Below are positions 9,190 through 64,000 of a DNA stretch of 64,000 nt, in pieces; the stretch's first letter is position 1, and the number at the start of each line of letters is the position of its first letter. The notes below the pieces were generated by a model. That model was not told the DNA's origin. It worked only from the letters and a program-made list of their open reading frames with translations, and did no database searches. Location of the stretch: NCBI RefSeq assembly GCF_014137995.1, contig NZ_JACGWV010000003.1, forward strand, positions 558,001 to 622,000, read 5' to 3'. The DNA comes from Promicromonospora sukumoe (GTDB lineage: Bacteria; Actinomycetota; Actinomycetes; Actinomycetales; Cellulomonadaceae). Position numbers and translations under genes: made by a program.

Positions 9190-9196
9190 AAGCCGC

Positions 9197-9691: not shown

Positions 9692-9698
9692 GGTCCGC

Positions 9699-10337: not shown

Positions 10338-10343
10338 GTGTCG

Positions 10344-10349: not shown

Positions 10350-10383
10350 TCCGGCATGCTTTGCGCCGCCGTCAGGGGGTCAA

Positions 10384-10413
10384 TTGACGGTGAGTCAGTA
10401 ATAGCGCTAACGT
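10384..10413 (+). promoter_or_regulatory. Promoter of the DUF6230-DUF6114 operon (TTGACG, 18 bp, TAACGT)
   Basis: TTGACG at 10384-10389 and TAACGT at 10408-10413 are separated by 18 bases, a good match to a housekeeping actinobacterial promoter. The start codon lies about 50 bases downstream with a proper ribosome binding site, leaving room for the palindrome between them. The -35 overlaps a small inverted repeat (CCGTCA/TGACGG). Confidence 0.5.
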
Positions 10414-10420
10414 CGCGGCG

Positions 10421-10440
10421 GGACGACGACGTCGTCGTCC
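10421..10440. promoter_or_regulatory. 20-bp perfect palindrome, candidate TetR operator
   Basis: GGACGACGAC is followed directly by its reverse complement. It lies just downstream of the -10 box of the DUF6230 operon and between divergent genes, a normal place for a TetR operator. Simple GAC repeats are common in such GC-rich DNA, so chance is not excluded. Confidence 0.4.
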
Positions 10441-10465
10441 CCACATTGGCATGAGGGGAAATCCA

Positions 10466-46999: not shown

Positions 47000-47974
47000 A
47001 TGACCACGATGACCCCCGAGCAGGCGGCCTGGTTCGCCCAGACCTTCGACCGGCTCGTCGGCAACGTCGGCCAGGCGGTCCTGGGCAAGGCGCCGGTGGT
47101 ACGGCTGGCGCTCACGTGCATGCTCGCCGAGGGCCACCTGTTGCTGGAGGACGCCCCCGGCACGGGCAAGACCATGCTCGCCCGCTCCATCGCGGCGTCG
47201 GTGCAGGGTTCGCACAACCGCATCCAGTTCACGCCGGACCTGCTCCCGTCGGACGTCACCGGTGTGACGATCTACGACCAGAAGTCCGGCAAGTTCGACT
47301 TCCACCCGGGCCCGATCTTCGCCTCGATCGTGCTGGCGGACGAGATCAACCGTGCCTCGCCGAAGACGCAGTCGGCGCTGCTGGAGGTCATGGAGGAGGG
47401 CCGGGTCACCGTCGACGGCGTCGCGCACGAGACCGGCCGCCCCTTCATGGTGCTCGCGACCCAGAACCCGATCGAGCAGGCCGGTACCTACCGCCTGCCC
47501 GAGGCCCAGCTCGACCGCTTCCTCATGAAGACGTCGGTCGGCTACCCCGACCACGCCTCGACGGTGGAGATCCTGTCGGGCGCCGCGGTCAAGGACCGCA
47601 GCTCCGCGCTGCAGCCCATCATCACGACCAAGGCCGTGACCGAGATGGCCGACCTCGGCGCCACCGTGCACACCGACACCGCCGTGCTGGAGTACGTGTC
47701 CCGCCTCGCCGAGGAGACCCGCAACGCGCACGAGGTGCGCGTCGGCGTCTCCGTCCGTGGCGCGCTGGCCCTGGTGCGCTGCGCCAAGGTGTGGGCCGCC
47801 GCCCACGGCCGCAACTACGTGCTGCCCGACGACATCAAGGAGCTGGCCCAGCCCGTCTGGGGCCACCGCTTCGTGCTGGACCCGGAGGCCGAGTTCGCGG
47901 GCGCCCGCCCCGACGTCGTGCTGGCCCGGATCATGGCCGACGTCGCCGCGCCGCAGGAGCGGGCCTCGGCATGA
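47000..47974 (+). CDS. MoxR-family AAA+ ATPase
   Basis: The 324-residue cytoplasmic ATPase has Walker A EDAPGTGKTMLARS (K57), Walker B IVLADEINRA (D114-E115), sensor 1 LATQNPIEQAGTYRLPEAQLDRF cut here to ATQNPIEQAGTY, and an arginine-rich sensor 2 region near VSVRGALALVR. MoxR ATPases usually act as chaperones for a DUF58/von Willebrand-type partner, and here the DUF58 gene overlaps it by four bases (ATGA), followed by a transglutaminase-fold gene. This MoxR-DUF58-TGase order is a widespread unit. ATG start; the upstream sequence has only AGGGAAA as a weak ribosome binding site. Confidence 0.93.
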   Translation: MTTMTPEQAAWFAQTFDRLVGNVGQAVLGKAPVVRLALTCMLAEGHLLLEDAPGTGKTMLARSIAASVQGSHNRIQFTPDLLPSDVTGVTIYDQKSGKFDFHPGPIFASIVLADEINRASPKTQSALLEVMEEGRVTVDGVAHETGRPFMVLATQNPIEQAGTYRLPEAQLDRFLMKTSVGYPDHASTVEILSGAAVKDRSSALQPIITTKAVTEMADLGATVHTDTAVLEYVSRLAEETRNAHEVRVGVSVRGALALVRCAKVWAAAHGRNYVLPDDIKELAQPVWGHRFVLDPEAEFAGARPDVVLARIMADVAAPQERASA

Positions 47975-49311
47975 CGACGGGCATCTCGGCGGGCGGAGCG
48001 CCCGGGCCGGCGTACGGCAAGCGCCAGGACAAGCCGACCGGCCTCGCCGGCGTCGTCGCGGCAGGCCGCGAGCGGGCGCAGGAGGGCCGCCGCGGCTGGG
48101 TGACCCTCTCTGCCGCCGCCCGCACGCGGGCGGGGGCGGCCGGCCGTGCGCTCGCCCCGGTCCGCCGGACGTTCAGCACGTTCGGCATCGCGGTGACGCT
48201 GATGGCCGCCGGGGCCTGGGTCGCCGGGCTGGTGCTCGGCTGGCTCGAGCTGCTCGTGGCCGCGATCGTGCTGACGGTCACGCTGCTGTGCGCCATCGTG
48301 TTCGTGCTCGGGCGGTTCAAGTACGACGTCGTGCTCGACCTGGCGCAGGCCCGCGTGACCGTCGGTGACCGCGCCGTCGGCCGTCTCGACGTGCGCAACG
48401 CGTCGAGCCGCCCGCTGCTGCCGTCGGTGATGGAGCTCCCGGTCGGCAGCGGCACGGCGGCGTTCCCCGTGCCCCGCCTGAAGGGCGGCGGCACGCACGA
48501 GGAGATCTTCACGATCCCGACCCGGCGCCGCAGCGTGATCACGGTGGGCCCGGTCAAGTCCGTCCGCGCCGACCCCCTGGGCCTGCTGCGCCGCGAGATG
48601 ACCTGGACCGGTGAGCAGGAGGTCTTCGTGCACCCGCGCGTCAAGAACCTCACGGGCTCGTCGACCGGCTTCCTCAAGGACCTCGAGGGCCGCGTCACCA
48701 ACGACATCACGAACGCCGACGTCAACTTCCACGCCCTGCGGGACTACGTGCCGGGCGACGACCGCCGGCACATCCACTGGAAGACGACGGCCCGCACCGG
48801 CCAGATCATGGTGCGCCAGTTCGAGGAGACCCGGCGCTCGCACCTCGCGGTGCTGCTGTCCACGCGCGCCGAGGACTACGCGAACGAGGAGGAGTTCGAG
48901 CTCGCCGTGAGCGTCTGCGGCTCCCTGGGCCTGCAGGCCATCAAGGAGGACCGCGGCGTGACGGTGCTGGTCAACGAGGCCACGCTGCACGGTGACCACC
49001 GCACCCGCCTGATGGACGACCTCTCCCGGATCGAGATGGAGTCCCGCAAGTCCAAGCTGGTCGACCTCGCCCGCGCCGCGAGCATGGCCGCCGCCGACTT
49101 CTCGGTGATCGCCTTCATCGTCGGCAGCCGGGTCACGCCCACCGAGCTGCGCGCGGCGTCCGCCCGCGTGCCCGTGGGCGTCCAGGTCATGGCCATCCAG
49201 TGCGTGCCGGGGGCCTCCCTCGGCCGGCACTCCATCGCGGAGCTGGGCGTGCTCACCCTGGGCCGCCTCGGCGACCTGCCCCTTGCGCTGAAGAAGATGA
49301 GCGACGCATGA
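47971..49311 (+). CDS. DUF58 membrane-associated protein
   Basis: The 446-residue protein has a basic N-terminus, two adjacent transmembrane helices (about 67-117), an immunoglobulin-like stretch, and the DUF58 signature at about residues 252-270 (FHALRDYVPGDDRRHIHWK followed by TTARTG). The C-terminal part has a von Willebrand A-like layout. DUF58 proteins are partners of MoxR ATPases; their exact function is not settled. ATG overlaps the MoxR stop, and the own stop overlaps the transglutaminase gene (ATGA). Confidence 0.9.
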   Translation: MTTGISAGGAPGPAYGKRQDKPTGLAGVVAAGRERAQEGRRGWVTLSAAARTRAGAAGRALAPVRRTFSTFGIAVTLMAAGAWVAGLVLGWLELLVAAIVLTVTLLCAIVFVLGRFKYDVVLDLAQARVTVGDRAVGRLDVRNASSRPLLPSVMELPVGSGTAAFPVPRLKGGGTHEEIFTIPTRRRSVITVGPVKSVRADPLGLLRREMTWTGEQEVFVHPRVKNLTGSSTGFLKDLEGRVTNDITNADVNFHALRDYVPGDDRRHIHWKTTARTGQIMVRQFEETRRSHLAVLLSTRAEDYANEEEFELAVSVCGSLGLQAIKEDRGVTVLVNEATLHGDHRTRLMDDLSRIEMESRKSKLVDLARAASMAAADFSVIAFIVGSRVTPTELRAASARVPVGVQVMAIQCVPGASLGRHSIAELGVLTLGRLGDLPLALKKMSDA

Positions 49312-51770
49312 GTGACGAGAACACCCGCGGCAACCTCCCGGCGGGCGCGCCGGCGCAGGGCAACCAGCCGCCCTACGGCACCGGTACCGGGTACCGGACC
49401 GGCACGGGCCGGGGCACCACCCGCCGCAAGGAGCGCGAGCAGCCGCGCGCGCTGACCAGGTTCGCCCTGGTCGACGCCGCCGCGCTGGTCGTGATGCTCG
49501 GCGCGGTGGCCGTCGGCTTCGGCCCCGTCTGGGGCTCCCTCGGCTACCTGCTGCCCACCGTCGGCGGCATCGTCGTCGGCCTGGCCGTGGCCTGGGTGGG
49601 CGCCTGGCGGCGCTTCCCCGCCGTCGTCGTGACGGCGCTGGCCGTGCTGGCCTACGTGCTGTTCGGCGGCGCGCTGGCCCTGCCGCACACGTCGATCGCG
49701 GGCGTCGTGCCGACCCTGGACACGCTGCGCGAGCTGCTGCTCGGCTCGGTGCAGGGCTGGAAGCAGTTCATCACCACCGTGCCCCCCATGCGGTCGTTCC
49801 CCGACCTCGGGGTGGTCCCGTTCCTGCTGATGCTCGTCGTCGCGCTCGTGGCGGGCACCATCGCCTGGCGCGCGAAGCACGCGGTCTGGGCCGTGGTGCC
49901 GGTCGTCGTCGGCCTGGTCGGTGTGATCCTGCTGGGCACGCTCGACGCCGCGATGCCCGTCGTGCAGGGCCTCGTGATCGCCATCGCCGCGCTCCTGTGG
50001 GGTGCGGTGCGGGTGATGGAGGCGCGCGTCGGCACGCACTCGATCACCACGGAGGCCAGCCGCGAGGCCACGCGCCGGCTGCGCTGGCACCGCGTCCGCA
50101 CGGGCGCCGTCATCCTGGGCGCCGCGGCGCTGGTCGCCGGCTTCGTCGCGCCGGTCATCATGCCCGAGCAGCCCCGTACGGTGCTCCGCGAGACGATCGT
50201 CCCGCCGCTGGACGTCCACCAGTTCACCAGCCCGCTCGTGGCGTTCCGGCACTACGCCAAGGACGCCCGCGAGGACGAGCTGTTCACCGTCAGCGACCTG
50301 CCGGAGGACGGCCGCATCCGGCTCGCCACCCTCGACCGGTACGACGGCGTGGTCTACGACGCGTCCGGCGACGGCGGCGACACCGGCGTCTACACGCGGG
50401 TCGGCGAGGAGATCGCCACGGCCTCCGAGGGCACGCCGACGCCGATCGACGTCGAGGTCACGGGCTACAGCGGCGTCTGGGTGCCCGAGATCGGCAACCT
50501 GACCGGCGTGGAGTGGCTCGGCGGCAACGCCGAGGCCCAGACGGACGGCACCTACTACAACTCGACCACCAGCACCGCGATCACCACCGCGGGCATCAAG
50601 CCGGGCGACACGTACCGCCTGAACGTGCTGATGCCGGAGACGCCGGACGAGGACACCCTGAAGAAGGGCACGATCCTCGACGCCGACCTGCCGGAGACCG
50701 AGACGACCGCGATGCCGGCGGGCCTGCCCGCCAAGGCGCTGCAGTTCACGGGCGAGGAGACCGACCCCGCGACCAAGCTCTTCCTGATCCGCGATGGCCT
50801 CCAGGCGTCGGGCGTGCTCTCGAGCGGGCTCGACGGCGAGGTGCCGTCGCGCCCGGGCCACTCGGCCGAGCGTGTCGACACGCTCGTCGAGGAGGAGAAG
50901 ATGGTGGGTGACGACGAGCAGTTCGCCGTCGCGCTCGCCCTCATGGCACGCCAGGCCGGCATCCCGGCCCGCGTGGTCATGGGCTTCTACCCGGACAAGG
51001 ACAGCGAGTACGAGGAGGGCGAGCCCTGGACGGTGCTCGGCAGCGACGTGCACGCCTGGATCGAGGTGCCCTACAAGGGGTACGGCTGGGTCCCGGTCGA
51101 CGCCGTCCCGGACGAGAAGCCGCAGATCCAGCCCGAGCCCAAGAGCGAGCAGGTACCCAAGCCGCCCGTGCTGCAGGACCCGGAGCCCCCGGAGGAGCCG
51201 GACAAGGCGAAGGCCGGCAGCGTGGAGGACGACGAGAAGGACGACGCCGACAACGACCTGTTCGACTGGGGTCTGCTCGGGCTCATCCTGCTCGCCGTCG
51301 GCATCCCGCTGCTGCTGATCGTCGGCCCGATCGTCGCGATCCTCGCGTACAAGGCCCGGCGACGGACGGCCCGGCGCACCGCCGACCAGCCCGCCGACCA
51401 GATCAGCGGTGGCTGGCACGAGGTGGTCGACGTCGTGACCGACATCGGGACGACCGTGCCGCCCGGCGCGACCCGGCGCGAGAGCGCCGGCGTGATCGTC
51501 GGAGCGCACCAGGTCCCCGCCACCCTCACGCTCGCGCACCGCGCGGACGCCTCGGTCTTCGGCCGGGGTGAGCCCACCCAGGCCGAGGTCGACTCGTTCT
51601 GGGCCGAGGTGGACGCGCTGGTGGGCGGGCTACGCTCCAACCTCAGCAAGCGACGGAGGGTGCGCGCGGCGTTGTCGCTGCGGTCCGTCTGGGCGCGTGT
51701 GGGCGGTCGTCGCGGAATCCTCGCGGCACTCGGGGGACTCGGGTCCCGGCGGAAGAAGGAGAGTCGATGA
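49308..51770 (+). CDS. Transglutaminase-fold membrane protein lacking the catalytic cysteine
   Basis: The 820-residue protein has a block of transmembrane helices (about residues 50-280), a large outside region with a transglutaminase-like domain (about 510-605), an acidic linker, one more transmembrane helix (about 654-681) and a basic cytoplasmic tail. The domain keeps H582 (SDVHAWIEV) and D598 (GWVPVDAVP), but the motif that normally reads G-x-C-E-x-F/Y-A is GDDEQFA, with D536 at the cysteine position. It is therefore unlikely to be a cysteine protease or cross-linking enzyme and may be a binding pseudo-enzyme. It is co-translated with the DUF58 and RDD genes through ATGA overlaps. Confidence 0.88.
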   Translation: MSDENTRGNLPAGAPAQGNQPPYGTGTGYRTGTGRGTTRRKEREQPRALTRFALVDAAALVVMLGAVAVGFGPVWGSLGYLLPTVGGIVVGLAVAWVGAWRRFPAVVVTALAVLAYVLFGGALALPHTSIAGVVPTLDTLRELLLGSVQGWKQFITTVPPMRSFPDLGVVPFLLMLVVALVAGTIAWRAKHAVWAVVPVVVGLVGVILLGTLDAAMPVVQGLVIAIAALLWGAVRVMEARVGTHSITTEASREATRRLRWHRVRTGAVILGAAALVAGFVAPVIMPEQPRTVLRETIVPPLDVHQFTSPLVAFRHYAKDAREDELFTVSDLPEDGRIRLATLDRYDGVVYDASGDGGDTGVYTRVGEEIATASEGTPTPIDVEVTGYSGVWVPEIGNLTGVEWLGGNAEAQTDGTYYNSTTSTAITTAGIKPGDTYRLNVLMPETPDEDTLKKGTILDADLPETETTAMPAGLPAKALQFTGEETDPATKLFLIRDGLQASGVLSSGLDGEVPSRPGHSAERVDTLVEEEKMVGDDEQFAVALALMARQAGIPARVVMGFYPDKDSEYEEGEPWTVLGSDVHAWIEVPYKGYGWVPVDAVPDEKPQIQPEPKSEQVPKPPVLQDPEPPEEPDKAKAGSVEDDEKDDADNDLFDWGLLGLILLAVGIPLLLIVGPIVAILAYKARRRTARRTADQPADQISGGWHEVVDVVTDIGTTVPPGATRRESAGVIVGAHQVPATLTLAHRADASVFGRGEPTQAEVDSFWAEVDALVGGLRSNLSKRRRVRAALSLRSVWARVGGRRGILAALGGLGSRRKKESR

Positions 51771-53566
51771 CGGACGTGGTCTGCGCGGGTTGCGGGTCGA
51801 CCCAGCGAGCGGGTGCGCCCTTCTGCGCGGCCTGCGGACGGGAGTTCCCGCGTACGGGACGGCCCGTCGCGGAGCCGGCCCAGGTGCCGCAGGGACAGGT
51901 GCAGCAGGCGGCCGCCGCCGCGCGGGGCGGCTCGGGCTCGGTGCCGATGGTGGAGAGCCGGCCGCCGATCACCACCGAGGTGGAGGTCTACACGGCGACG
52001 CAGATTCCCGCGGCGGGGTCAGTGCCGCCGCCGCTGGTCGCGCCCTACGCGGGTGTCGGCAAGCGGTTCGTGGCGTGGCTGATCGACGGCGCCATCGCCG
52101 GCGTGCTGATCGGCATCGTGGCGGGCATCGGCATCTCGTTCATCGACGTCCCCTCGGGCCTCGTGGTCGTGTCCCAGGAGCAGGCGGCAGAGATCGCCGC
52201 CCAGATGATGCGGGTCTACCTGCTCGGGGGCCTGGTCGGGTTCGCCTTCCAGCTCTCCATGTGGATCTGGGAGTCCCGGACCGGCCGCACCATCGGCAAC
52301 TCCGCGATGGGCCTGCGCACGCTGTCGGCCGAGGACCGGGCCCCGATCGGGTTCGTCCGCGAGATCCTCCGCGTGCTCGTGCTCGCGGCCGGCTCCCTCG
52401 TGCTCGGCGTCGGCCAGATCGTGGTGCTGCTCAGCCCCCTGTGGGACAAGGGCGGCAAGGTCCAGGGCTGGCACGACAAGGCGGCCCGGTCCGTCGTGGT
52501 CGACGTCCGCGCCCCGCAGGTCGCGGGCACCGGGCTGACCCCGGTGGCGGCCGGTCCGCGCGCCCCGGGCAAGCCCGCGGTGCGGCCGACGACGCCCGCG
52601 GCCCCCGCATCGAGCCCGTACGGCCAGGTGCCGCCGCTGTCGCCCGCGGCCCCGCAGGCCCCGGCGCAGCCCGCCGTGGCGGCGCCGGACCCGTGGGCGT
52701 TCCCGCAGGCACCCGCCCAGGGGGCTCCCGCGGCGGGCGGCGACGGCCTCATCACCGGTATCCCGGGCAGCGCGCCGAGCGCGCCGCCCGCGCAGCAGGC
52801 ACCGGTCCAGCAGCAGCCGCCTTCGCAGCCGGTGCAGCAGCAGCCGTACCAGCAGCCGGCGGCGCAGCAGCCGCAGCAGCCGGTCCAGCAGCAGCCCTAC
52901 CAGCAGCAGCCCGCGCCCCAGCAGCCGTCGGTCCAGCAGCCCGCGCCGCAGCAGCCCGAGTCGGCCTGGCCGGCCCGGACCTGGCCGGTGCAGCAGGAGC
53001 AGGCCCCGCAGCAGGAGCAGCCCGCGCAGCAGCAGGCTCCGGCCGCCCTGCCGCCGCAGCAGCACCCGGAGTCCCGCCCGACGCGCGGCGTCGGCCACCC
53101 GCAGAACGGTGCCCCGGCGCAGCCCGCCCCGGCCGCGCCGCCCGCGCAGGCGGCCCTGCCGCCGCAGCGGGACGAGGTCTCGGACGCCACACGGATGCAG
53201 GCCCCGGTCCTGGAGCCCGCCGCCGTCGTCACCGTGACCGTCGAGCTGGAGTCGGGGGAGCGCCGGGTCATCGACGGGCCCGCCCTGGTGGGCCGCAACC
53301 CGCAGGCCGCCGACGGTTCGTCGTACATCCTCGTGCGGGTGGAGGACCCGACCCGGTCGGTGTCCAAGAACCACGCCGAGCTGGGCGTCGACTCCGCCGG
53401 GCTGTGGCTGACCGACCGCGGGTCCACGAACGGCACCGTCGTCTCGGCGCCGGGCCGCTCGCCGCAGGTCGCGGAGCCGGGCGCCCGGGTCCGGGTGCCG
53501 GTGGGCGCGACCATCCACGTCGGGGACCGCCGTCTGGTCGTGCACGCCGCCGAGCCCCGGGCATGA
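51767..53566 (+). CDS. Zinc-ribbon, RDD-membrane and FHA domain protein
   Basis: The 599-residue protein begins with a four-cysteine zinc ribbon (C6, C9, C20, C23), then an RDD membrane domain (about 93-250, with GVGKRFVAWLIDGAIAGV and three hydrophobic helices), a very long Pro/Gln/Ala-rich linker with repeated QQQPYQQP-type units (about 260-490), and a C-terminal FHA domain (about 505-590; GRNPQ, SKNHAEL, DRGSTNGT). The FHA domain should read threonine phosphorylation, probably set by the kinase four genes downstream. The linker has strong CAG/CCG codon repetition, which may be prone to length change. ATG overlap on the previous gene and on the PP2C gene. Confidence 0.9.
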   Translation: MTDVVCAGCGSTQRAGAPFCAACGREFPRTGRPVAEPAQVPQGQVQQAAAAARGGSGSVPMVESRPPITTEVEVYTATQIPAAGSVPPPLVAPYAGVGKRFVAWLIDGAIAGVLIGIVAGIGISFIDVPSGLVVVSQEQAAEIAAQMMRVYLLGGLVGFAFQLSMWIWESRTGRTIGNSAMGLRTLSAEDRAPIGFVREILRVLVLAAGSLVLGVGQIVVLLSPLWDKGGKVQGWHDKAARSVVVDVRAPQVAGTGLTPVAAGPRAPGKPAVRPTTPAAPASSPYGQVPPLSPAAPQAPAQPAVAAPDPWAFPQAPAQGAPAAGGDGLITGIPGSAPSAPPAQQAPVQQQPPSQPVQQQPYQQPAAQQPQQPVQQQPYQQQPAPQQPSVQQPAPQQPESAWPARTWPVQQEQAPQQEQPAQQQAPAALPPQQHPESRPTRGVGHPQNGAPAQPAPAAPPAQAALPPQRDEVSDATRMQAPVLEPAAVVTVTVELESGERRVIDGPALVGRNPQAADGSSYILVRVEDPTRSVSKNHAELGVDSAGLWLTDRGSTNGTVVSAPGRSPQVAEPGARVRVPVGATIHVGDRRLVVHAAEPRA

Positions 53567-54402
53567 CCCACCAGGAGCAGGGGCTGACGACGATCTGGGG
53601 TGCGGCATCGCACCAGGGTCGTCGTCGGTCGCTCAACGAGGACGGATACCTGGCGACCGGCCGGGTGTTCTTCGTGGCCGACGGCATGGGCGGGCACGAG
53701 GCGGGCGAGGTGGCCAGCGCGGAGGCGCTGGCCGCGCTCAGCGGGCTCGCCGACGTCGAGCAGGTGGAGCCGGCCCTGGTCGAGGCGTTCCTCGAGATCG
53801 CCCAGCAGCGGGTCCGCGCCATCGAGACGGACTCGGGCAACGCGCCCGGCACCACGCTCACGGGCGTGCTGGTGGACGAGCGCGAGGACGTGCCGTACTG
53901 GCTCTTCGTGAACGTCGGGGACTCGCGTACCTACCTGCTCTCGGGCGGGGTGCTCGCGCAGGTGAGCGTGGACCACTCCGAGGTGCAGGAGCTCGTGGAC
54001 GCGGGCGCGATCACGATGGACCAGGCCCGCAGCCACCCGCGGCGGAACGTCATCACCCGGGCGCTGGGCGCCCAGGACGACGTCCGGGCCGACTTCCGGT
54101 ACATCCCGGTCACGCTGCACGACCGCGTGCTGATCTGCTCGGACGGCCTCACGGGGGAGCTGACCGACGACCAGATCAAGTCGATCCTGCTGGAGCAGCC
54201 CGACCCGGAGCGCGCCGCCGGCCACCTGGTCAACGCGGCGATTCAGGCCGGGGGCCGGGACAACATCACCGTCGTCGTGGTCGACGTGACCGGCGTCGAG
54301 GACGAGACCATAGGGTCGTCGACAGCACCACGGGCGGGGGCGGAGCCTGACGAGGACACCCTGCCGCGAGAAGAGCACGCAGCAAGAAGCCAGGGGGTCT
54401 GA
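53563..54402 (+). CDS. PP2C-family Ser/Thr protein phosphatase
   Basis: The 279-residue phosphatase has the PP2C motifs: the N-terminal RRRSLNEDGY, metal ligand D40 in FVADGMGGHEAGEVAS, the NVGDSRTYLL strand pair, HPRRNVITRALG, D194 in ICSDGLTGELTDDQ, and D233 in GGRDNITVVVV. It should remove phosphates put on by the locus kinase, giving a reversible switch read by the FHA proteins. No transmembrane segment; the C-terminal 40 residues are an acidic tail. The ATG overlaps the RDD gene stop. Confidence 0.94.
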   Translation: MTHQEQGLTTIWGAASHQGRRRSLNEDGYLATGRVFFVADGMGGHEAGEVASAEALAALSGLADVEQVEPALVEAFLEIAQQRVRAIETDSGNAPGTTLTGVLVDEREDVPYWLFVNVGDSRTYLLSGGVLAQVSVDHSEVQELVDAGAITMDQARSHPRRNVITRALGAQDDVRADFRYIPVTLHDRVLICSDGLTGELTDDQIKSILLEQPDPERAAGHLVNAAIQAGGRDNITVVVVDVTGVEDETIGSSTAPRAGAEPDEDTLPREEHAARSQGV

Positions 54403-54403
54403 C

Positions 54404-56089: not shown

Positions 56090-56144
56090 GGGCCGCGACC
56101 CGCCCGACCGCCGGCTACGGCTCCAGCATCGACGAAGGAGAGTT

Positions 56145-57773
56145 GTGAGCAGCAAGCGTGCGCCGTCCGCGCCGCCCCAGATCGCAGGGTTCGAGTACAA
56201 GAAGCTGATCGGTTCGGGCGGCTTCTCCGACGTCTTCCTGTACGAGCAGCAGCGCCCCAAGCGTCTGGTCGCCGTCAAGGTGCTCCTCAAGGAGCACGCG
56301 AGCGACGCGCAGCGCGTGGCGTTCGACTCCGAGGCCGACCTGATGGCGATCCTGGGCAACCACCCCTCGATCGTGACGATGTACGAGGCGAGCGTCGCCG
56401 CCGACGGCCGCCCCTTCCTGGCCATGGAGTACTGCTCGCGCCCCAACCTGGGCGCGCGGTACCGGTCGGAGCGCTTCTCGCTGGCCGAGGCCCTGCGCAC
56501 GACGATCCAGATCGCCGGCGCGGTCGAGACCGCCCATCGGCTCGGCATCCTGCACCGCGACCTGAAGCCCGCCAACATCCTGGTGACGCAGTTCGGGCAC
56601 CCGGCGCTGACCGACTTCGGCATCTCGTCGACGGTCGACCAGGCCTCGGCCGCCGAGGGCATGTCGATCCCGTGGTCGCCGCCCGAGTCGTTCGGCGACC
56701 CGCCGGTCGCGGGCAAGACGACGGACGTCTGGGCGCTGGCCGCCACCTGCTACACGCTGCTCGCCGGGCGCACGCCGTTCGAGGTGCCGGGCGGCTCCAA
56801 CACGTCGGCCGACCTGGTGGCGCGGATCGAGCAGGCACCGCTGCCCCCCATCGGGCGCAACGACGTGCCGCCGTCGCTGGAGCAGGTGCTCCGCATCGCG
56901 ATGGCCAAGCACCCGTCGTCGCGGTACCCGTCGGTGCTGGCGTTCGCCCGCGCGCTGCAGCAGGTCCAGGTGGGCCTGGCGCGCGACATGACCCCCATCG
57001 ACCTCCTCGACGAGACCGGTGCGGTCGCGGAGGAGGAAGAGGACGACGACGGCACGCGGCTGAAGAACGTCACGGCGATCGACCCGGGGCAGCTCCCTGC
57101 CCCCGGGACGGCGCCGGGCGGCGGCGCGGGCACCTCGTCGGGCGGCTTCGGGCCGCCCCCGCAGGGCACGTCCGGCTGGGCGCCCCAGGGCGGCACCGCG
57201 ACCGGGGCGCGAACCACCGTGCCCGCCGTCGACCTGCCGGTGGCCTCGCTCGGGTGGAACGCGCCGGCCGTCGAGGAGACGGTCCACCGGACGCGTGCCC
57301 CCGAGGCGCCCGAGGAGTCGCCGGTCGAGGCCGAGCCGGAGAAGTCGTCGCCTTGGGCCACGGTCGCGCTGATCGCCGGCGCGGTGGTCCTGGTGGCCGT
57401 GATCGTCGTGGGCTGGTTCGCGCTGCGGCCCGGCGCGGAGGACCCCGAGGAGCCGGGCCAGACGCAGACGGTCGCGGGCGACCCGCCGCCCGCGCCGGGC
57501 GCGGGCTACGTGCCCCCGGTCCAGGACCTGGCGGGCAAGGCGCAGGGCGACGAGGCGGTCTTCTCCTGGAAGCCCCCAAAAACCCAGGTGGAGGGCGACG
57601 AGTACGGGTACCGTGTCCTGTCGGCCACCGAGGAGAGCCGTTACGAGGCCGCTGTGGGAACCTCCGTGACGGTGGACCGGCTCGAGGGCGAGCGGACGTG
57701 CCTCGAGGTCGTCGTGGTGCGCTCCGGGAAGGCTTCGCAGCAGCCGCAGCAGGCGTGCGTCGAGCTGGGCTGA
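56145..57773 (+). CDS. Transmembrane Ser/Thr protein kinase (PknB-type) with extracellular Fn3-like domain
   Basis: The 542-residue protein has a cytoplasmic kinase domain (about 16-280) with the glycine loop IGSGGFSDVF, K45 (AVKV), the catalytic loop HRDLKPANIL (D139) and DFG (D157). The APE motif reads PPESF. An acidic and Gly/Pro-rich linker follows, then one transmembrane helix (about 403-427) and a short outside domain of about 90 residues with a fibronectin-type pattern (DEAVFSWKPPK ... YGYRVL ... TCLEVVVVR). PASTA repeats are absent, so the signal is not the usual muropeptide one. GTG start with GAAGGAG (56134-56140). It could sense secretion or the giant repeat proteins. Confidence 0.93.
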   Translation: MSSKRAPSAPPQIAGFEYKKLIGSGGFSDVFLYEQQRPKRLVAVKVLLKEHASDAQRVAFDSEADLMAILGNHPSIVTMYEASVAADGRPFLAMEYCSRPNLGARYRSERFSLAEALRTTIQIAGAVETAHRLGILHRDLKPANILVTQFGHPALTDFGISSTVDQASAAEGMSIPWSPPESFGDPPVAGKTTDVWALAATCYTLLAGRTPFEVPGGSNTSADLVARIEQAPLPPIGRNDVPPSLEQVLRIAMAKHPSSRYPSVLAFARALQQVQVGLARDMTPIDLLDETGAVAEEEEDDDGTRLKNVTAIDPGQLPAPGTAPGGGAGTSSGGFGPPPQGTSGWAPQGGTATGARTTVPAVDLPVASLGWNAPAVEETVHRTRAPEAPEESPVEAEPEKSSPWATVALIAGAVVLVAVIVVGWFALRPGAEDPEEPGQTQTVAGDPPPAPGAGYVPPVQDLAGKAQGDEAVFSWKPPKTQVEGDEYGYRVLSATEESRYEAAVGTSVTVDRLEGERTCLEVVVVRSGKASQQPQQACVELG

Positions 57774-57820
57774 CCGACTCCGGCCGACCGGCCGGCCGAC
57801 TGGGGGGAAGAGGGGACGAC

Positions 57821-58519
57821 GTGGGCGATCTCGCGCTGGAGTTCTGTGGCGAGTGGTTCGATCCTGCGCAGGCGGAGGACGGGTTCGACGTGGGCCGCGA
57901 GGGTGACCTCGCGATCGACGACAACCCCTACCTGCACCGACGCTTCCTGCGGCTGACGCAGGAGGACGGGATCTGGTGGCTCGCGAACGTGGGCTCCCTG
58001 ATCTCCGCGACGGTGTGCGACGCGGGCGGCGGCGTGCAGTCGTGGCTTCCGCCCGGCCACCGCCTGCCCATCGTCTTCCCCACCACCTCCATCGTCTTCA
58101 CGGCCGGTCCCACCACCTATGAGCTCACGGCCCAGCTCACGGACGCCCCGTACCACGAGGTGCGCTCCGAGGACCCCGACACCGGCGCCACCACCATCGG
58201 CGCCATCAGCTTCACCACCAGCCAGAAGCAGCTCATCGTGGTGCTCGCCGAGCCCATGCTGCGCCGCGAGGGCACCGGCCTGAGCGAGATCCCGTCCTCC
58301 GCGGACGCGGCACGCCGCCTGGGCTGGGCCACCACCCGGTTCAACCGCAAGCTCGACAACGTCTGCGAGAAGCTCGACCGGATCGGCGTGAAGGGCCTCC
58401 GCGGCGGCCCCGGGCTGCTCGCCACCAACCGGCGCGCGCGGCTCGTCGAGTACGCCGTCGCCTCCCGGCTGGTGACCCCCGCGGACCTCCCACTTCTCGA
58501 CCTGAAGGACGACGCCTGA
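57821..58519 (+). CDS. FHA-like domain protein of the secretion locus
   Basis: The 232-residue soluble protein has an N-terminal half that looks like a divergent FHA domain (DVGREGDLAIDDNPYLHRRF, then WWLANVGS), and a C-terminal half with a helix-rich segment AARRLGWATTRFNRKLDNVC suggestive of a helix-turn-helix or a partner-binding helix pair. Phosphothreonine binding is not certain, as the usual S.xH/NG residues are only partly kept. The GTG at 57821 is chosen for GAAGAGGGGAC just upstream; longer in-frame readings run through the kinase gene and are not credible. It lies one base before the ATPase gene. Confidence 0.75.
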   Translation: MGDLALEFCGEWFDPAQAEDGFDVGREGDLAIDDNPYLHRRFLRLTQEDGIWWLANVGSLISATVCDAGGGVQSWLPPGHRLPIVFPTTSIVFTAGPTTYELTAQLTDAPYHEVRSEDPDTGATTIGAISFTTSQKQLIVVLAEPMLRREGTGLSEIPSSADAARRLGWATTRFNRKLDNVCEKLDRIGVKGLRGGPGLLATNRRARLVEYAVASRLVTPADLPLLDLKDDA

Positions 58520-58520
58520 C

Positions 58521-61500
58521 GTGCGTATCAAGCTGACGCTGAACAGACCCGACGAGTCCGGCGTGAACGTCGCGGTCACCGCCGACGCCACCGCGACGGT
58601 GCGCGACGTGGCCGAGGCCCTCTTCTCGGGCGACCCGACCCGCAACGGTGCGGCCGCCCCCGAGAACCTCACCCTGCAGGTGCTCGCCGACGGGTCGACG
58701 AGCTTCACCGGCGGCCGGGTGCTGACCCCGACGAACGACCTGGTCCAGGCGGGCCTGCGGTCCGGCTCGGTGGTCTCCATCGTGCGCGTCTCCGAGCAGT
58801 TCGTGAACCCGGGGCAGGACCGCGGCACCGCCGTCGCGCAGCTCCGCGTCCTGGACGGGCCCGACGCCGGGCGCGACTTCCCGCTGCCGGTCGGCACGTC
58901 CTACATCGGCCGTGACCGGGGCATGGACATCCGCCTCCAGGACGGCCAGGTGTCCAAGCGGCACGCCCGCGTGGTCGTGGGCGAGTCCATCGAGGTGCAC
59001 GACCTGGCCTCCGCGAACGGCCTGGTCATGGGCGGCAAGCGGATGACGCGCGCCGTGCTGACGTCGTCGGACACCGTGACGCTCGGTGAGACCACCCTGT
59101 CCGTGGTGGCCCTGCACCGGTCCACGAGCCTGGCGCCGACCAGCCCGGTCGTCGAGTTCAACCGGTCCCCGCGGGTCGTCACGCGCTTCGGCGAGATCAA
59201 GATCAAGGCGCCCAAGCCGCCCCGGCCGCCGCAGCCGCAGCGCCTGCCCTGGCTCATGATGCTCGCGCCGATGGCGATGGGCGCGGTGATGTACTCGTTC
59301 ACGCGCAACCCGATCTCGCTGCTGTTCATGTTCATGAGCCCGGTGATGATGCTCGGGATGTGGATGGACCGGAAGATCTACGGCAAGAAGCAGTTCAAGG
59401 AGGCCTCCGAGCAGTTCGAGCAGGCCGTCGTCGCCACGTCGGAGCGCATCGACCGCACGCACGCCGTCGAGCGGGCCGTGCGGCTCGCGGAGCTGCCGTC
59501 GCTCGCCGAGTCGCTCGACGCGGTGCGCCGCCTGGGCGGCCTCATGTGGACCCACCGCCCCGAGCACCGCGGCTTCCTCACGGTGCGGTTCGGGCTCGGC
59601 TCGGGTCCCGCCCGCACGATCTTCGACGAGCCGCGCGAGAACGACGCCATCCCCGAGCACTGGCAGCGCGTGCTGGACCTCCAGGAGCAGTGCCTCACCA
59701 TCCACGACGTCCCGATGGGCGCGGGGTTCCGCTACGGCGGCAACGCCGGCATCGCCGGGCCGAGCGGCGTGGTCGAGCCGGTCGGCCGGTCCGTCCTGCT
59801 GCAGCTCGTCACGCTTCACTCGCCCGCGGAGCTCGTCGTCACGGCCCTCACGTCCGCGCGCTCGCGGGCGGACTGGGAGTGGCTCGAGTGGCTGCCCCAC
59901 ACCGGCTCCCCGCACAGCCCGCTCGGCGCGTCGGACCACCTGGCCGACGACCCGGCGTCCGGCGCCTCCCTGCTGACCCGGCTCGAGGAGCTCGTCGAGG
60001 CCCGCGGCGTCAGCCTCGACGGCCCCGCGCCGCTGGTGGGCGAGCTCGACTCCGAGAAGGACCGCAAGGACGCGCCGCCCAAGCCGGTGCTGCCGTCCGT
60101 CGTCGTGCTGATCGAGGACGACGCCCCGGTCGAGCGGGCGCGTCTCGTCCGCCTGGTCGAGCACGGGGCCGCCGCAGGCGTCCACGTGGTCTGGATCGCC
60201 CCGACCGTCGAGCAGCTCCCCGCCGCCTGCCGCACCTTCGTGCTGCTGGACCCGAACTCCAGCGACAACGGCGCGATGACGGGCGAGGTGCACTACGGGC
60301 AGCTCGCCTACCCGGTGCGCTGCGACGTCGCGGACCTCAACACCGCGCGCGAGGTGGCCCGCATCCTGTCGCCGGTGATCGACATCGGCGCGCCCACCGA
60401 CGACGAGTCCGACCTGCCGCGCGCGGTCTCCTACCTGGCCCTGGCCGGCACCGAGCTCGGCAAGGACTCCAGCGGCGTGATCGAGCGGTGGCGGGAGAAC
60501 CTCTCCCTCACGCCGCGCGACGGCTCGCCGCCGGTGCGGCGCAAGACGCCCACCAACCTGCGGGCGCTGATCGGGCACGACGGCGTGGAGCCGTTCCACC
60601 TGGACCTGCGCACCCAGGGCCCGCACGCCCTCGTGGGCGGGACCACCGGTGCCGGAAAGTCGGAGTTCCTGCAGTCCTGGGTGCTCGGCATGGCGGCCGC
60701 GCACAGCCCCGACCGCGTGACCTTCCTGTTCGTGGACTACAAGGGTGGCGCGGCGTTCGCCGACTGCGTCAACCTGCCGCACACCGTCGGCCTGGTGACG
60801 GACCTGTCGCCGCACCTGGTGCGGCGCGCGCTGTCCTCGCTGCGCGCGGAGCTGCACTACCGCGAGCACCTGCTGAACCGGAAGAAGGCCAAGGACCTGG
60901 CGTCCCTGGAGCGCACGGGTGACCCCGAGGCGCCGCCGAGCCTGATCATCGTGGTCGACGAGTTCGCGGCCCTGGTCGGCGAGGTCCCGGAGTTCGTGGA
61001 CGGCGTCGTCGACGTCGCCCAGCGTGGCCGGTCGCTCGGCCTGCACCTCATCCTCGCGACGCAGCGCCCCGCCGGCGTCATCAAGGACAACCTCCGCGCC
61101 AACACGAACCTGCGCATCGCCCTGCGCATGGCCGACGAGCACGACTCCAAGGACGTGCTCGGCGACGAGATGGCGGCACACTTCTCGCCGTCGATCCCGG
61201 GCCGTGGCGCCGCGAAGACCGGCCCCGGCCGGCTCACCACGTTCCAGACCGGCTACGCCGGTGGCTGGACCACGGACGAGCCCGAACGTTCCTCGCTCGA
61301 CATCGAGGAGATGGACTTCGGCACCGGACGGCGCTGGGAGCTCCCGGCCCCCGAGGTGATCGAGGAGCACGACCCGGGCCCCAACGACATCGCGCGCGTG
61401 GTCAGCACGATCCGCCGCGCGGCCGGCGAGGCGGGCGTGCCCACGCCCCGCAAGCCGTGGCTGCCCGAGCTCGCGCCCACGTACGACCTGGCCCTGCTGC

Positions 61501-62996
61501 CCAACCGGCGCACGGACTCCCAGCTCGTGCTCGGCGTGCTGGACAACCCGCCGCAGCAGACCCAGCCGACCGTGCACTACGAGCCCGACAGCGACGGCAA
61601 CCTCGCGATCTACGGCACCGGTGGTACGGGCAAGAGCACCACGCTGCGCACCATCGCGGTGTCCGCGGGCCTGACGCACCGCGGCGGCCCCGTGCAGGTC
61701 TACGGCATCGACTGCGGCTCCGGCGGTCTGTCGATGCTGGAGAACCTGCCCCACGTGGGCGCCGTCATCGCCGGCGACGACGAGGAGCGCGTGGGCCGCC
61801 TCCTGCGCCGTCTGCGCGACACGCTGGACCAGCGGGCCGACCGCTACGCCGCCGTCCGCGCCTCGACCATCGAGGAGTACCGCCGCCTGGCGAACAAGCC
61901 CGACGAGCCGCGCATCATCGTGCTCGTCGACGGCATCGGCGCGTTCCGCGAGGCCTACGAGAACATCACCGCCCGCGGGTTCTCGATCTTCGGCACCTTC
62001 ACGCAGCTCGCGACCGACGGCCGCCCCGTCGGCATCCACCTGGTCATGAGCGGCGACCGCGCCGTCTCCGTGCCCCCGTCGCTGGCCTCCACGGTGCAGA
62101 AGCGCATCGTGCACCGGATGGCGAAGGAGGACGACTACGTGATGCTGAACGTGCCGAAGGACGTCCTGACCCCGGCGTCCGCGCCGGGCCGGGCCATCAT
62201 GTACGGCCAGGAGGCGCAGATCGCCGTGCTCGGCGGCGACTCCAACGGTGCCGTGCAGTCGCGCGAGCTCGCCCGCCTGGAGCAGACCATGCGCTCGGTC
62301 GGCGGGGTGCCCCAGGCCCCCGGCGTCGACCGCCTGCCGGACACGTTCACGCTGGAGCAGCTGCCCCAGCGGACGACGGACCTGGCGACGATCGGTCTGC
62401 GGGACCTGGACATCGCGCCGATCGGCCTGCCCATGCGTGGCCCGCTCATGCTCGCGGGCCCGCCCGGCTCGGGTCGGACGACGGCGTTCGTGACGCTGGC
62501 GACCGCCCTGCGCCGGGCCGGCGGCACCCGGCTGGTGTACCTCTCCTCGCGGCGGTCCAGCCTGTCGGCGCTGGACCTCTGGGACATGACGGCGTCGAGC
62601 CCCGAGGACGTCGTGGAGCTGCTCAAGGAGCTCACCACGGTCCTCGAGAGCGACCGGGCCACCCCGGGCACGCTCACCGTGATGATCGAGAACTACACCG
62701 AGATGACGGGCACGCCCGCCGAGAAGCCGCTGGAGGCCTTCGTCAAGCTCGCGTCCCGCAAGGACCAGCTCGTCATCGGCGAGTCGGAGTCCTCCACCTG
62801 GAGCAAGGCGTTCACGCTCGCAGGCCCGTTCAAGTCGGGCCGCAACGGCCTGCTCCTGACGCCGGGCGACACCGACGGCGACACGCTCATGAACACCCCG
62901 CTCGGCCGCATCCGCCGCAAGGACTTCCCGCCGGGCCGCGGGTTCCTCGTGACGGCCGGCCGGGCCACCAAGATCCACGTCGCCCTGCCGGGGTGA
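58521..62996 (+). CDS. EccC/EssC-like type VII secretion ATPase (ubiquitin-like, FHA, three FtsK/SpoIIIE domains)
   Basis: The 1,491-residue protein begins with a ubiquitin-like region (about 1-90), followed by an FHA domain (about 127-195; GRDRGMDIR, SKRHARV), two transmembrane helices (about 243-285) and three FtsK/SpoIIIE ATPase domains. Domain 1 is intact: Walker A GGTTGAGKSEF (K713) and Walker B IIVVDEFAAL (D813-E814). Domain 2 keeps Walker A GTGGTGKSTTL (K1038) but has D1137-G in place of DE. Domain 3 has GPPGSGRTTAF with R1319 instead of lysine. This is the motor of type VII secretion and should move the WXG100 proteins coded just downstream. The FHA at the N-terminus is as in Firmicute EssC, not mycobacterial EccC. 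Confidence 0.93.
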   Translation: MRIKLTLNRPDESGVNVAVTADATATVRDVAEALFSGDPTRNGAAAPENLTLQVLADGSTSFTGGRVLTPTNDLVQAGLRSGSVVSIVRVSEQFVNPGQDRGTAVAQLRVLDGPDAGRDFPLPVGTSYIGRDRGMDIRLQDGQVSKRHARVVVGESIEVHDLASANGLVMGGKRMTRAVLTSSDTVTLGETTLSVVALHRSTSLAPTSPVVEFNRSPRVVTRFGEIKIKAPKPPRPPQPQRLPWLMMLAPMAMGAVMYSFTRNPISLLFMFMSPVMMLGMWMDRKIYGKKQFKEASEQFEQAVVATSERIDRTHAVERAVRLAELPSLAESLDAVRRLGGLMWTHRPEHRGFLTVRFGLGSGPARTIFDEPRENDAIPEHWQRVLDLQEQCLTIHDVPMGAGFRYGGNAGIAGPSGVVEPVGRSVLLQLVTLHSPAELVVTALTSARSRADWEWLEWLPHTGSPHSPLGASDHLADDPASGASLLTRLEELVEARGVSLDGPAPLVGELDSEKDRKDAPPKPVLPSVVVLIEDDAPVERARLVRLVEHGAAAGVHVVWIAPTVEQLPAACRTFVLLDPNSSDNGAMTGEVHYGQLAYPVRCDVADLNTAREVARILSPVIDIGAPTDDESDLPRAVSYLALAGTELGKDSSGVIERWRENLSLTPRDGSPPVRRKTPTNLRALIGHDGVEPFHLDLRTQGPHALVGGTTGAGKSEFLQSWVLGMAAAHSPDRVTFLFVDYKGGAAFADCVNLPHTVGLVTDLSPHLVRRALSSLRAELHYREHLLNRKKAKDLASLERTGDPEAPPSLIIVVDEFAALVGEVPEFVDGVVDVAQRGRSLGLHLILATQRPAGVIKDNLRANTNLRIALRMADEHDSKDVLGDEMAAHFSPSIPGRGAAKTGPGRLTTFQTGYAGGWTTDEPERSSLDIEEMDFGTGRRWELPAPEVIEEHDPGPNDIARVVSTIRRAAGEAGVPTPRKPWLPELAPTYDLALLPNRRTDSQLVLGVLDNPPQQTQPTVHYEPDSDGNLAIYGTGGTGKSTTLRTIAVSAGLTHRGGPVQVYGIDCGSGGLSMLENLPHVGAVIAGDDEERVGRLLRRLRDTLDQRADRYAAVRASTIEEYRRLANKPDEPRIIVLVDGIGAFREAYENITARGFSIFGTFTQLATDGRPVGIHLVMSGDRAVSVPPSLASTVQKRIVHRMAKEDDYVMLNVPKDVLTPASAPGRAIMYGQEAQIAVLGGDSNGAVQSRELARLEQTMRSVGGVPQAPGVDRLPDTFTLEQLPQRTTDLATIGLRDLDIAPIGLPMRGPLMLAGPPGSGRTTAFVTLATALRRAGGTRLVYLSSRRSSLSALDLWDMTASSPEDVVELLKELTTVLESDRATPGTLTVMIENYTEMTGTPAEKPLEAFVKLASRKDQLVIGESESSTWSKAFTLAGPFKSGRNGLLLTPGDTDGDTLMNTPLGRIRRKDFPPGRGFLVTAGRATKIHVALPG

Positions 62997-63002
62997 CGGG
63001 GG

Positions 63003-63020
63003 ATGGGGAGTCCTCCCCAT
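63003..63020 (+). terminator. Small hairpin after the secretion ATPase gene
   Basis: ATGGGGAG (63003-63010) and CTCCCCAT (63013-63020) pair around a 2-base loop, seven bases after the stop. Such a tight stem is weak as a terminator. It may partly separate the ATPase message from the WXG100 genes, which are usually expressed more strongly. Confidence 0.3.
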
Positions 63021-63108
63021 TCCACCGCGTCACGGGCCATGGAATAGTTCGTGACGTCGCAGAAACGGAGGTTGTCCGCGAGGGCAGCCACAGGAAAAGG
63101 AGCTTGAC

Positions 63109-63393
63109 ATGGTCGCAGAGGGTGGCAACGTTTTCGGTCTTGATGTCGAGGCAGTCCGGAGCCTCGCCAACACGCTCCGTACCCAGGCCGAGGGCGTCCG
63201 TCAGGTCGTGACGACGATCACGAGCCAGATGTCCCAGACCCAGTGGAACGGTCAGGACGCCGTGCAGTTCCAGGAGGAGTGGGACGGCACCCACGCCGCC
63301 AAGCTCAACGAGATCGCCGCGGCGCTCGAGACCTACGGCACCACGGCGGACAACAACGCCAACATGCAGGACGAGACCTCGAGCGCGTACTGA
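63109..63393 (+). CDS. WXG100-family (ESAT-6-like) secreted protein
   Basis: The 94-residue protein is an all-helical hairpin of standard WXG100 length with the W46-N-G48 turn (TQWNGQDAVQFQEEW) in the middle. Helix 1 begins FGLDVEAVRSLANTL and helix 2 ends LETYGTTADNNANMQDE. There is no signal peptide, as expected for type VII substrates. A strong AAAGGAG ribosome binding site precedes the ATG. It probably pairs with itself or with the WXG100 head of the next protein and is exported by the upstream ATPase. A stem-loop follows it. Confidence 0.93.
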   Translation: MVAEGGNVFGLDVEAVRSLANTLRTQAEGVRQVVTTITSQMSQTQWNGQDAVQFQEEWDGTHAAKLNEIAAALETYGTTADNNANMQDETSSAY

Positions 63394-63441
63394 TCGAGCT
63401 CGAGCCTCTTCCGGAGGCCAGGCCCCGGACCGGGGCCGGTA

Positions 63442-63480
63442 TCAAGGGGTGCGGGACCGACTACGGCCCGCACCCCTTGA
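63442..63480 (+). terminator. Stem-loop between the two WXG100 genes
   Basis: Perfect 14-base arms (63442-63455 and 63467-63480) enclose an 11-base loop; just upstream GGCCCCGG/CCGGGGCC-type symmetry (63421-63437) adds a second small stem. It lies 48 bases after the WXG100 stop and ends in CTTGACTTCG without a long U-tract. It could set different expression levels for the two genes. Confidence 0.55.
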
Positions 63481-63560
63481 CTTCGTAACGACGTAAGCAG
63501 TTCCAGCGGTACCCATGCGAAACCACTGCGCCGTCACCGGCGGGACGTGAGGAGAACCAA

Positions 63561-64000
63561 GTGAGCGGGGGAATGGTCGGCGCCGACATCGAGGCGCTGC
63601 GTCTGCTTGCGGACAAGTTCGACGAGGGCAGCGACAAGCTGGAGACCATCGTCACCACCGTCGAGTCGGCCGTGCCGCAGGCGGACGGCTGGAGCGGCCC
63701 GGACGCCGAGGGCTTCCGCCAGGAGTGGTCCGGCAGCCACCTCGTGCGGCTCCGGGAGACGGCCGTCGCGCTGAGCGAGGTGGCCGGCAAGGTGCGCTCC
63801 AACGCCGACGCGCAGGAGGAGACGTCGAACGACTACACCGGCGTCCCGGGCGGCGGCGGTCCCGGCGGCACCGACGTCGCTGGTGCGTCCAACCGGCCGG
63901 GCAGCGTCTGGGACGTCTTCGAGACCGGCAAGGGCCTGGTCGACTTCGGGCTGGCCGGCTGGGCCAACTTCAAGTACGGCCGCAACCTGCTCAACCTGTC
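63561..64000 (+). CDS. WXG100-headed longer protein, truncated by the window end (partial)
   Basis: The visible 146 codons start with GTG after a GAGGAGA ribosome binding site. Residues 1-95 form a WXG100 helical hairpin with W44-S-G46 (DGWSGPDAEGFRQEW) and the end NADAQEETSNDY. A Gly/Pro-rich linker (GVPGGGGPGGT) follows, then a new region GSVWDVFETGKGLVDFGLAG that continues beyond the window. The layout is that of a type VII effector or of a secretion-linked protein with a WXG100 targeting head. The C-terminal function cannot be told. Confidence 0.85.
   Translation, partial: MSGGMVGADIEALRLLADKFDEGSDKLETIVTTVESAVPQADGWSGPDAEGFRQEWSGSHLVRLRETAVALSEVAGKVRSNADAQEETSNDYTGVPGGGGPGGTDVAGASNRPGSVWDVFETGKGLVDFGLAGWANFKYGRNLLNL

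Follow-up and report, generated by a model that had tools for sequence, protein, structure and literature searches.

A putative phospho-regulated type VII secretion locus adjoining a PFNA-type operon in Promicromonospora sukumoe

Type VII secretion systems (T7SS) that lack the known membrane core have precedents: T7SSc to T7SSj were published in 2024, and a kinase/FHA type from Actinomycetota is among them (PMC11217815). That type, T7SSd, consists of WXG100 proteins, a motor with an FHA domain, a kinase, TsdH (which has one transmembrane [TM] helix), and TsdI, a giant protein with a signal peptide and a C-terminal TM helix (Garrett et al. 2024, PMC11217815). According to the same paper, the motors of T7SSd and T7SSe might be controlled by threonine phosphorylation via their FHA domains. 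A second literature concerns the PFNA operon of Bifidobacterium, whose kinase phosphorylates MoxR (PMC8430577). Here we describe a locus in a stretch of 64,000 nucleotides from Promicromonospora sukumoe ("the window": G000:C3:558001-622000, from a genome of 6.5 Mb in 4 contigs). We consider it probable that this is a phospho-regulated, T7SSd/T7SSe-like type VII secretion locus that adjoins a PFNA-type envelope-signaling operon. As far as the searched literature goes, the locus is a real, widespread, and undescribed variant of the kinase/FHA kind of T7SS, and no paper joining PFNA with a type VII motor was found among open-licence PMC papers.

The presumed secretion motor is an EssC/EccC-like ATPase of 1491 amino acids (58521..62996; FtsK_SpoIIIE, E 1e-53; FHA, E 4e-11). 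Its best curated model is EssC (TIGR03928, 526 bits against a cutoff of 778), followed by EccCa (352) and EccCb (321), and all three scores are under the equivalog cutoffs. The Walker residues of ATPase 1 are invariant across 16 aligned motors. Residues 104 to 196 (58830..59108) form an FHA domain with the residues of a phosphothreonine reader: Gly130, Arg131, Ser145, and His148 each reach 90% conservation or more in 44 homologs, as does Asn166 in 16. The solved FHA domain that matches best is 3gqs, from an adenylate cyclase-like protein; GarA, OdhI, Rv1827, and TB39.8 also match. Among the best 80 of 577 relatives, the window's motor is 95% identical to the motor of a Promicromonospora sukumoe locus, L152.

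Residues 1 to 95 of the motor (58521..58805) form a second conserved domain, which we consider, with moderate support from weak profile matches, to be ubiquitin-like. When a profile of 38 motor N-termini was compared to the PDB, a redesigned ubiquitin came first (E 0.0018) and small archaeal modifier proteins came next (E 0.18); of 54 N-termini, 10 had been omitted from set A2 and 16 from set A4. Individual members of the 38 have weak matches to YukD (3), a yeast ubiquitin domain (3), OTU1_UBXL (3), and UBX (2). In an eight-sequence search with the profile, six distant motors were over the threshold, including that of the T7SSd-like locus L129 (E 0.0009), and two were not.

The proteins encoded just upstream of the motor could write, erase, and read phosphothreonine. 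The serine/threonine kinase (56145..57773; E 1.5e-38) has one TM helix (residues 407 to 425) and an outside domain with a weak match to Fn3 (E 0.037); its lysine, HRD, and DFG motifs are kept in 35 of 36 sequences, with a gap in the other one. The Stp1-like PP2C phosphatase (53563..54402; PP2C, E 9e-11; Stp1 model, E 1.5e-60 but under its cutoff) has intact metal motifs in 34 of 35 sequences, again with a gap in the remaining one. Besides the motor, there are two proteins with C-terminal FHA domains: a membrane protein that combines RDD with FHA (RDD-FHA; 51767..53566; RDD, E 5e-18; FHA, E 3e-6) and a soluble protein (54404..56089; FHA, E 4e-7). The reader residues G, R, S, H, and N are kept in 41 of 41 RDD-FHA sequences and in 32 to 33 of 33 sequences of the soluble protein. 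The original prediction had counted four FHA or FHA-like domains; three of them have the reader residues, and the fourth, a protein of 232 amino acids (57821..58519), has no match in Pfam or NCBIfam.

We also noticed an acidic-x-Thr motif, [DE]-x-T-[RILVMQF], in the linkers of these proteins and in the tail of PP2C. When observed counts were compared to shuffled counts, using a motif that was defined post hoc from the window's proteins and homologs that are not independent of each other, we found 33 versus 9.7+-2.9 for RDD-FHA, 35 versus 19.1+-4.3 for the soluble FHA protein, 55 versus 17.2+-4.1 for the kinase, and 27 versus 5.5+-2.4 for the PP2C tail. This enrichment of 1.8-4.9 fold across the four proteins is a new observation. 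In the same four proteins, neither a serine version nor a basic version of the motif was enriched, and elsewhere the ratio was 0.86 (444 other proteins of the loci) or 1.04 (172 disorder-like windows). The motif is a lead to candidate phosphothreonine docking sites, not a proof of them. The original prediction was that secretion might be switched by threonine phosphorylation: the residues kept in the kinase, in PP2C, and in three FHA domains are in its favor, and the linker motifs add to this, but the idea itself was already in print (PMC11217815).

EccB, EccD, EccE, and mycosin had been reported as not seen. We searched for EccB (PF05108) and EccD (TIGR03920) in 60 genomes: 53 that carry the motor, including this one, and 7 T7SSa-type controls. 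Neither was found in this genome, and both were over the cutoff in just 2 of the 53 motor genomes (G067 and G007) and in all 7 controls. For EccD, two further motor genomes, G137 (E 3e-23) and G069 (E 6e-4), gave matches below the cutoff. EccE and mycosin were not searched for genome-wide, so that for those two the claim stands only as a reading of the neighborhood. YukC/EssB (PF10140), a check that the prediction had proposed, was not found anywhere in this genome, whereas the Bacillus subtilis control was positive; no search covered EssA or EsaA. Canonical ecc genes directly downstream would have refuted the prediction, and there are none: past the window lie the remainder of the second WXG100 gene, a gene of 270 amino acids, and then, as judged by eye, an unrelated oxidoreductase-like gene, so we take the locus to end there. 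That the locus has a type VII motor but lacks the T7SSa core is supported.

Most of the genes upstream of the motor correspond to the published PFNA operon (PMC8430577). The likeness extends to the order fn3, MoxR, duf58, tgm, to prpC and fha after these, and to a transmembrane kinase in the set. In the window, the fn3 position is held by a tandem pair of Fn3/Ig giants that are 59.5% identical across 2020 aligned positions. The first (34564..40665, 2033 amino acids) has Big_9, cadherin-like, and fn3 domains, with one N-terminal TM helix and none at the C-terminus; the second (40872..46895, 2007 amino acids) also has one N-terminal TM helix and was assigned by its identity to the first, rather than by a separate Pfam scan. 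They are followed by a MoxR-type AAA ATPase (47000..47974; AAA_3, E 9e-62), a DUF58 protein with an N-terminal TM hairpin (47971..49311; DUF58, E 1e-13), and a TgpA-like transglutaminase-fold membrane protein (49308..51770; TgpA_N, E 3e-22; Transglut_core, E 2e-18). There are also differences from PFNA: its kinase gene, pkb2, leads the operon, while the kinase gene here is downstream of tgm, and RDD-FHA, the FHA-like protein, the motor, and WXG100 are added here, with no ftsk or wxg in the text of the PFNA paper (PMC8430577).

The whole array is codirectional, on the plus strand. Consecutive genes from MoxR to PP2C overlap by 4 bases; the gene for the soluble FHA protein starts 1 base beyond PP2C, and the same spacing of 1 base separates the FHA-like gene from the motor. 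Genes were called from open reading frames and codon-position GC content, and families were assigned by Pfam and NCBIfam scans. These confirmed the predicted motor, two WXG100 proteins, kinase, phosphatase, MoxR, DUF58, and transglutaminase-fold protein. The array of adjacent genes stands as well, but not their number, which had been given as twelve: we count 11 genes in 47000-64000, 13 with the two upstream giants, or 14 with one gene past the window.

By gene content and published descriptions, rather than by a tree of motors, the locus resembles both T7SSd and T7SSe. It shares with T7SSd its occurrence in Actinomycetota, an FHA motor with the phosphothreonine consensus, a kinase, WXG100, and an Ig-like giant nearby; the transmembrane kinase is a candidate counterpart of TsdD. 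However, none of the genes called in the array is a small single-TM gene like TsdH, and the giants have an N-terminal helix only, whereas TsdI has a C-terminal TM helix; they also have no similarity by phmmer to the giant of L129. Furthermore, the window's locus adds PP2C, RDD-FHA, the FHA and FHA-like proteins, MoxR, DUF58, and the transglutaminase-fold protein, which is a pseudoenzyme by its residues (see below). The window's motor has an N-terminal domain that seems ubiquitin-like, whereas no ubiquitin-like gene was reported for T7SSd (PMC11217815); this would be explained if the ubiquitin-like domain is fused to the motor.

L129 (G138:C7:86000-105900), from the same order, has the plan of T7SSd: a kinase-like frame, a single-TM frame of 148 amino acids, a giant, a motor, and WXG-size frames. 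The giant has 1799 amino acids and both N- and C-terminal TM helices, and the kinase has DFG, with its HRD pattern unmatched. The N-terminus of this motor also seems ubiquitin-like, though T7SSd was reported without a ubiquitin-like gene.

The gene content of the window's locus is nearer to T7SSe of Bacillota than to T7SSd: both have a kinase, a PPM phosphatase, a separate FHA protein, two WXG100 proteins, and a ubiquitin-like element. However, T7SSe was reported only in Bacillota (PMC11217815), whereas the nearest named relatives here, among the best 80 of 577, are Promicromonospora. In addition, the FHA protein of T7SSe has DUF6382, while the one here has FHA alone in Pfam; its ubiquitin-like protein is encoded by a separate gene; and TsdH/TsdI-type components and TseK were not found in the window's locus. 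ESX (T7SSa) also has an FtsK-type motor and paired WXG100 proteins, but no EccB or EccD was found here and the motor here has FHA. T7SSb (Ess/Yuk) is similar in that the motor is closest to the EssC model, in FHA on the motor, and in the ubiquitin-like element, but there is no YukC/EssB here, and the FHA domains of EssC lack the phosphothreonine site that is kept here (PMC11217815).

At E <= 1e-150, 58 of the 198 genomes searched from the order have the motor, and we analyzed the neighborhoods of 53 of them, after dropping five weak ones (L092-L096). RDD-FHA was the most common neighbor (42 loci), followed by DUF58, the transglutaminase-fold protein, and the FHA-like protein (32 each), PP2C (31), the soluble FHA protein (30), the kinase (27), and MoxR (26); absences are soft, as many of these loci end at contig ends or flank limits. 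Ten minimal loci have RDD-FHA without the FHA-like, kinase, PP2C, FHA protein, or transglutaminase-fold genes. The named relatives (the best 80 of 577) lean to close relatives and were viewed with 10-kb flanks, with MoxR and the giants mostly outside. In these 80 loci, we found the FHA-like protein in 79, the kinase in 79, the soluble FHA protein in 78, PP2C in 74, RDD-FHA in 73, the transglutaminase-fold protein in 72, and DUF58 in 62. Their genera include Promicromonospora, Cellulosimicrobium, Oerskovia, Brachybacterium, Arthrobacter, Microbacterium, Cryobacterium, and Herbiconiux. Another relative, L203, is a contig filed as Sporosarcina beigongshangi that holds an Arthrobacter-type block and a motor 56% identical to the window's; it is probably assembly contamination.

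We then counted motors with both ubiquitin-like and FHA domains (E <= 7.1e-40) and the FHA-like gene, as a marker for the block, in 396 genomes of the order. The motor was present in 123 genomes and the marker in 164: both in 100, the motor alone in 23, the marker alone in 64, and neither in 209. Raw co-occurrence is confounded by kinship; with stratification by family, in a test that still counts genomes of the same family as independent, the odds ratio was 8.25 (p 2e-11). The distance between marker and motor, measured in 96 of the 100 genomes with both, was at most 2 kb in 62 and 2-20 kb in 18; in the remaining 16, the two were either on separate contigs or 20 kb or more from each other. 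The block and the motor are linked beyond family kinship, yet separable.

Several of these results weigh against a single phospho-regulated secretion locus: besides the 64 genomes with marker only, the 23 with motor only, and the 16 where the two lie apart, RDD-FHA was not seen in 11 of the 53 loci. WXG100 was found in just 24 of those 53 loci and in 42 of the best 80 of 577, with scans that are not very sensitive. In 15 loci of the Arthrobacter group, no WXG100 frame turned up in a simple pattern scan, which speaks either against strict coupling there or for a gene that is missed or distant. The linker motif, besides its post hoc definition, occurs in just 3 of the 10 RDD-FHA proteins of minimal loci. 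The FHA-like protein retains Gly-Arg and Leu-His-Arg without the Ser and Asn of a phosphothreonine reader, and by these residues it seems to be degenerate as a reader. When the N-terminal domain of the window's motor was searched by itself against Pfam, it had no match, so that the ubiquitin-like reading is weak for its own sequence. Finally, secretion, phospho-gating, and RDD-FHA as a membrane partner are inferred from sequence.

The main alternative is that there are two neighbors: a PFNA-type operon (Fn3, MoxR, DUF58, pseudo-transglutaminase, PP2C, FHA, and kinase) beside an independent minimal T7SS (the motor, WXG100, and perhaps RDD-FHA). Shared regulation or inheritance would then account for their closeness. 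The genomes with the marker only and those with the two apart are what it would lead us to expect, and in three genomes (G047, G054, and G083) the transglutaminase-fold and FHA-like genes are 6-11 kb apart and far from the motor. In Bifidobacterium, PFNA was also described without a motor (PMC8430577). In family f4, which is presumably Bifidobacteriaceae, the transglutaminase-fold gene is present in 24 of 30 genomes, while a full-length motor, at 33% identity, is present in just 3 of 33, with shorter frames in two more (G683 and G124). In those three (G138, G082, and G644), the genes are 32-33 kb apart on opposite strands, and no operon of PFNA and motor was found in this Bifidobacterium-like family. 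We also considered FtsK frames of 590-760 amino acids in f4 as motors and set them aside, because there was no other block marker in seven neighborhoods (L130, L132-L135, L137, and L138). Against it stand the stratified odds ratio, the distance of at most 2 kb between marker and motor in 62 of the 96 genomes, the reader FHA domain on the motor itself, and the spacing of 1 base between the FHA-like gene and the motor. We consider this alternative rather unlikely, though it is the strongest rival.

One further locus, L212, touches on this question. It is from a metagenome-assembled genome labeled Bifidobacteriaceae, of another family than f4, and has the block, the motor, and an Fn3 giant in one 20-kb contig, along with two small and two long WXG100-headed genes; it links PFNA-type genes with the motor.

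The original prediction also suggested that the RDD protein, the transglutaminase-fold protein, and the Fn3 giants could form a new channel or a passage through the cell wall. Within the locus, these proteins are the ones that have multiple TM helices or lie at the surface, and the transglutaminase-fold protein may be structural, as it has lost its catalytic cysteine: Asp536 aligns with that residue in 6g49, a solved TgpA-type enzyme of the Pseudomonas aeruginosa type. This cysteine is replaced in 33 of 33 sequences (by D in 22, E in 9, and Q in 2), whereas the flanking Gly, Glu, and Gln are invariant; the replacement is a new observation, and by it the protein is a pseudoenzyme. However, the transglutaminase-fold gene and the block are separable from the motor, sometimes by a long distance, and of the block genes, the minimal loci retain just RDD-FHA. 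At the center of ESX-5 is the EccC motor, which forms the pore (PMC11217815), so no other channel need be assumed. The idea is unsupported, and we consider it very improbable.

At the cargo end, the window has a small WXG100 protein of 94 amino acids (63109..63393; WXG100, E 6e-6, 27.0 bits against a cutoff of 27.3) and a second one of 316 amino acids, which has a C-terminal hydrophobic hairpin at residues 221-261 (63561..64000, continuing beyond the window to L007:6512; WXG100_2, E ~1e-4; TIGR03930, E 1.7e-6). Both matches are weak but consistent as to family. The second gene overlaps by 4 bases a partner gene of 270 amino acids outside the window (L007:6509-7321, plus strand). The genes behind the motor vary from locus to locus: they are WXG100-headed, with varied C-termini and partner genes of their own, which is a new observation. 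In the best 80 of 577 loci, DcrB/LpqN-like genes are behind the motor in 22, and 11 of 26 long WXG100-headed proteins are followed directly by such a small gene. By Pfam, the DcrB-like assignment has good support only for L039; it is weak for L048 and L064, and for L040 there was no match. DcrB, formerly DUF1795, includes the Eag chaperones of type VI secretion systems. The DcrB/LpqN-like genes are possibly a chaperone family for type VII cargo. A frame in L129 (15981-16643) resembles them by eye.

The other partner, the 270-amino-acid gene, occurs in this genome and in L152, L154, and L226 (among the best 80 of 577); L226, from Myceligenerans, carries both kinds of partner. The family (39 homologs) had no match in the PDB or Pfam, EspG included, and one member, P0037, is named by its source as "ESX secretion-associate..". 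Judging from gene order and domains, this looks like swappable cargo, each with its own partner, which may be a chaperone or an immunity protein. That the motor instead moves some other substrate, or serves envelope assembly, with the WXG100 genes not its cargo, would fit the many loci where no WXG100 was found beside it, but we give this little credence, as EssC and EccC are the best curated models for the motor and WXG100-headed genes with varied C-termini are directly behind it in many loci.

This genome also has a second, different type VII locus, L008 (G000:C1:3357000-3376900). Its EccC/EssC-like motor (7253-11755, minus strand) is 35% identical to the window's and has no FHA match; its neighbors encode a WXG100 protein, an EspC-like protein, a T7SS_signal protein, and a pair of proteins that each have a signal and a TM helix; one of the pair also has an F5/8 type C domain. 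In addition, L009 (G000:C2:658000-677900) has a third FtsK-like ATPase at about 9150-10650 on the plus strand, in a frame of 1131 amino acids beside ABC-type permease-like genes; it is 40% identical over motor residues 684-1190.

If the window's locus is indeed a phospho-regulated secretion locus, then it might work as follows. The kinase would sense the envelope through its outside domain and phosphorylate the acidic-x-Thr linker sites of RDD-FHA, the soluble FHA protein, and the kinase itself. The FHA domains, including the motor's, would dock on the phosphorylated sites, so that the motor is recruited to or assembled at the membrane with RDD-FHA, which its frequency beside the motor suggests is the likeliest membrane partner. 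PP2C would undo the phosphorylation, and MoxR, DUF58, and the pseudo-transglutaminase may act on the envelope side as a set of chaperones and scaffolds. WXG100 proteins and WXG100-headed effectors would be exported, and each class of effector would have a small partner (a chaperone or an immunity protein).

More tentatively, this may be a distinct T7SS subtype without a dedicated channel or wall-spanning core, in which the motor, with ubiquitin-like and FHA domains of its own, is built on demand with RDD-FHA by a multi-site phosphothreonine code that an envelope-sensing kinase writes and PP2C erases; PFNA, including the cytokine-binding FN3 operon of Bifidobacterium, would then be the signaling and surface arm of the same ancestral machine. 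We regard this broader proposal as speculative. The comparison does bring together two literatures, on the PFNA operon and on the new T7SS subtypes. It also places a putative writer, eraser, and readers alongside candidate sites and cargo, within a single locus of common soil genera (Promicromonospora, Cellulosimicrobium, Brachybacterium, and Arthrobacter), so that phosphorylation-switched export would be directly testable in these bacteria.

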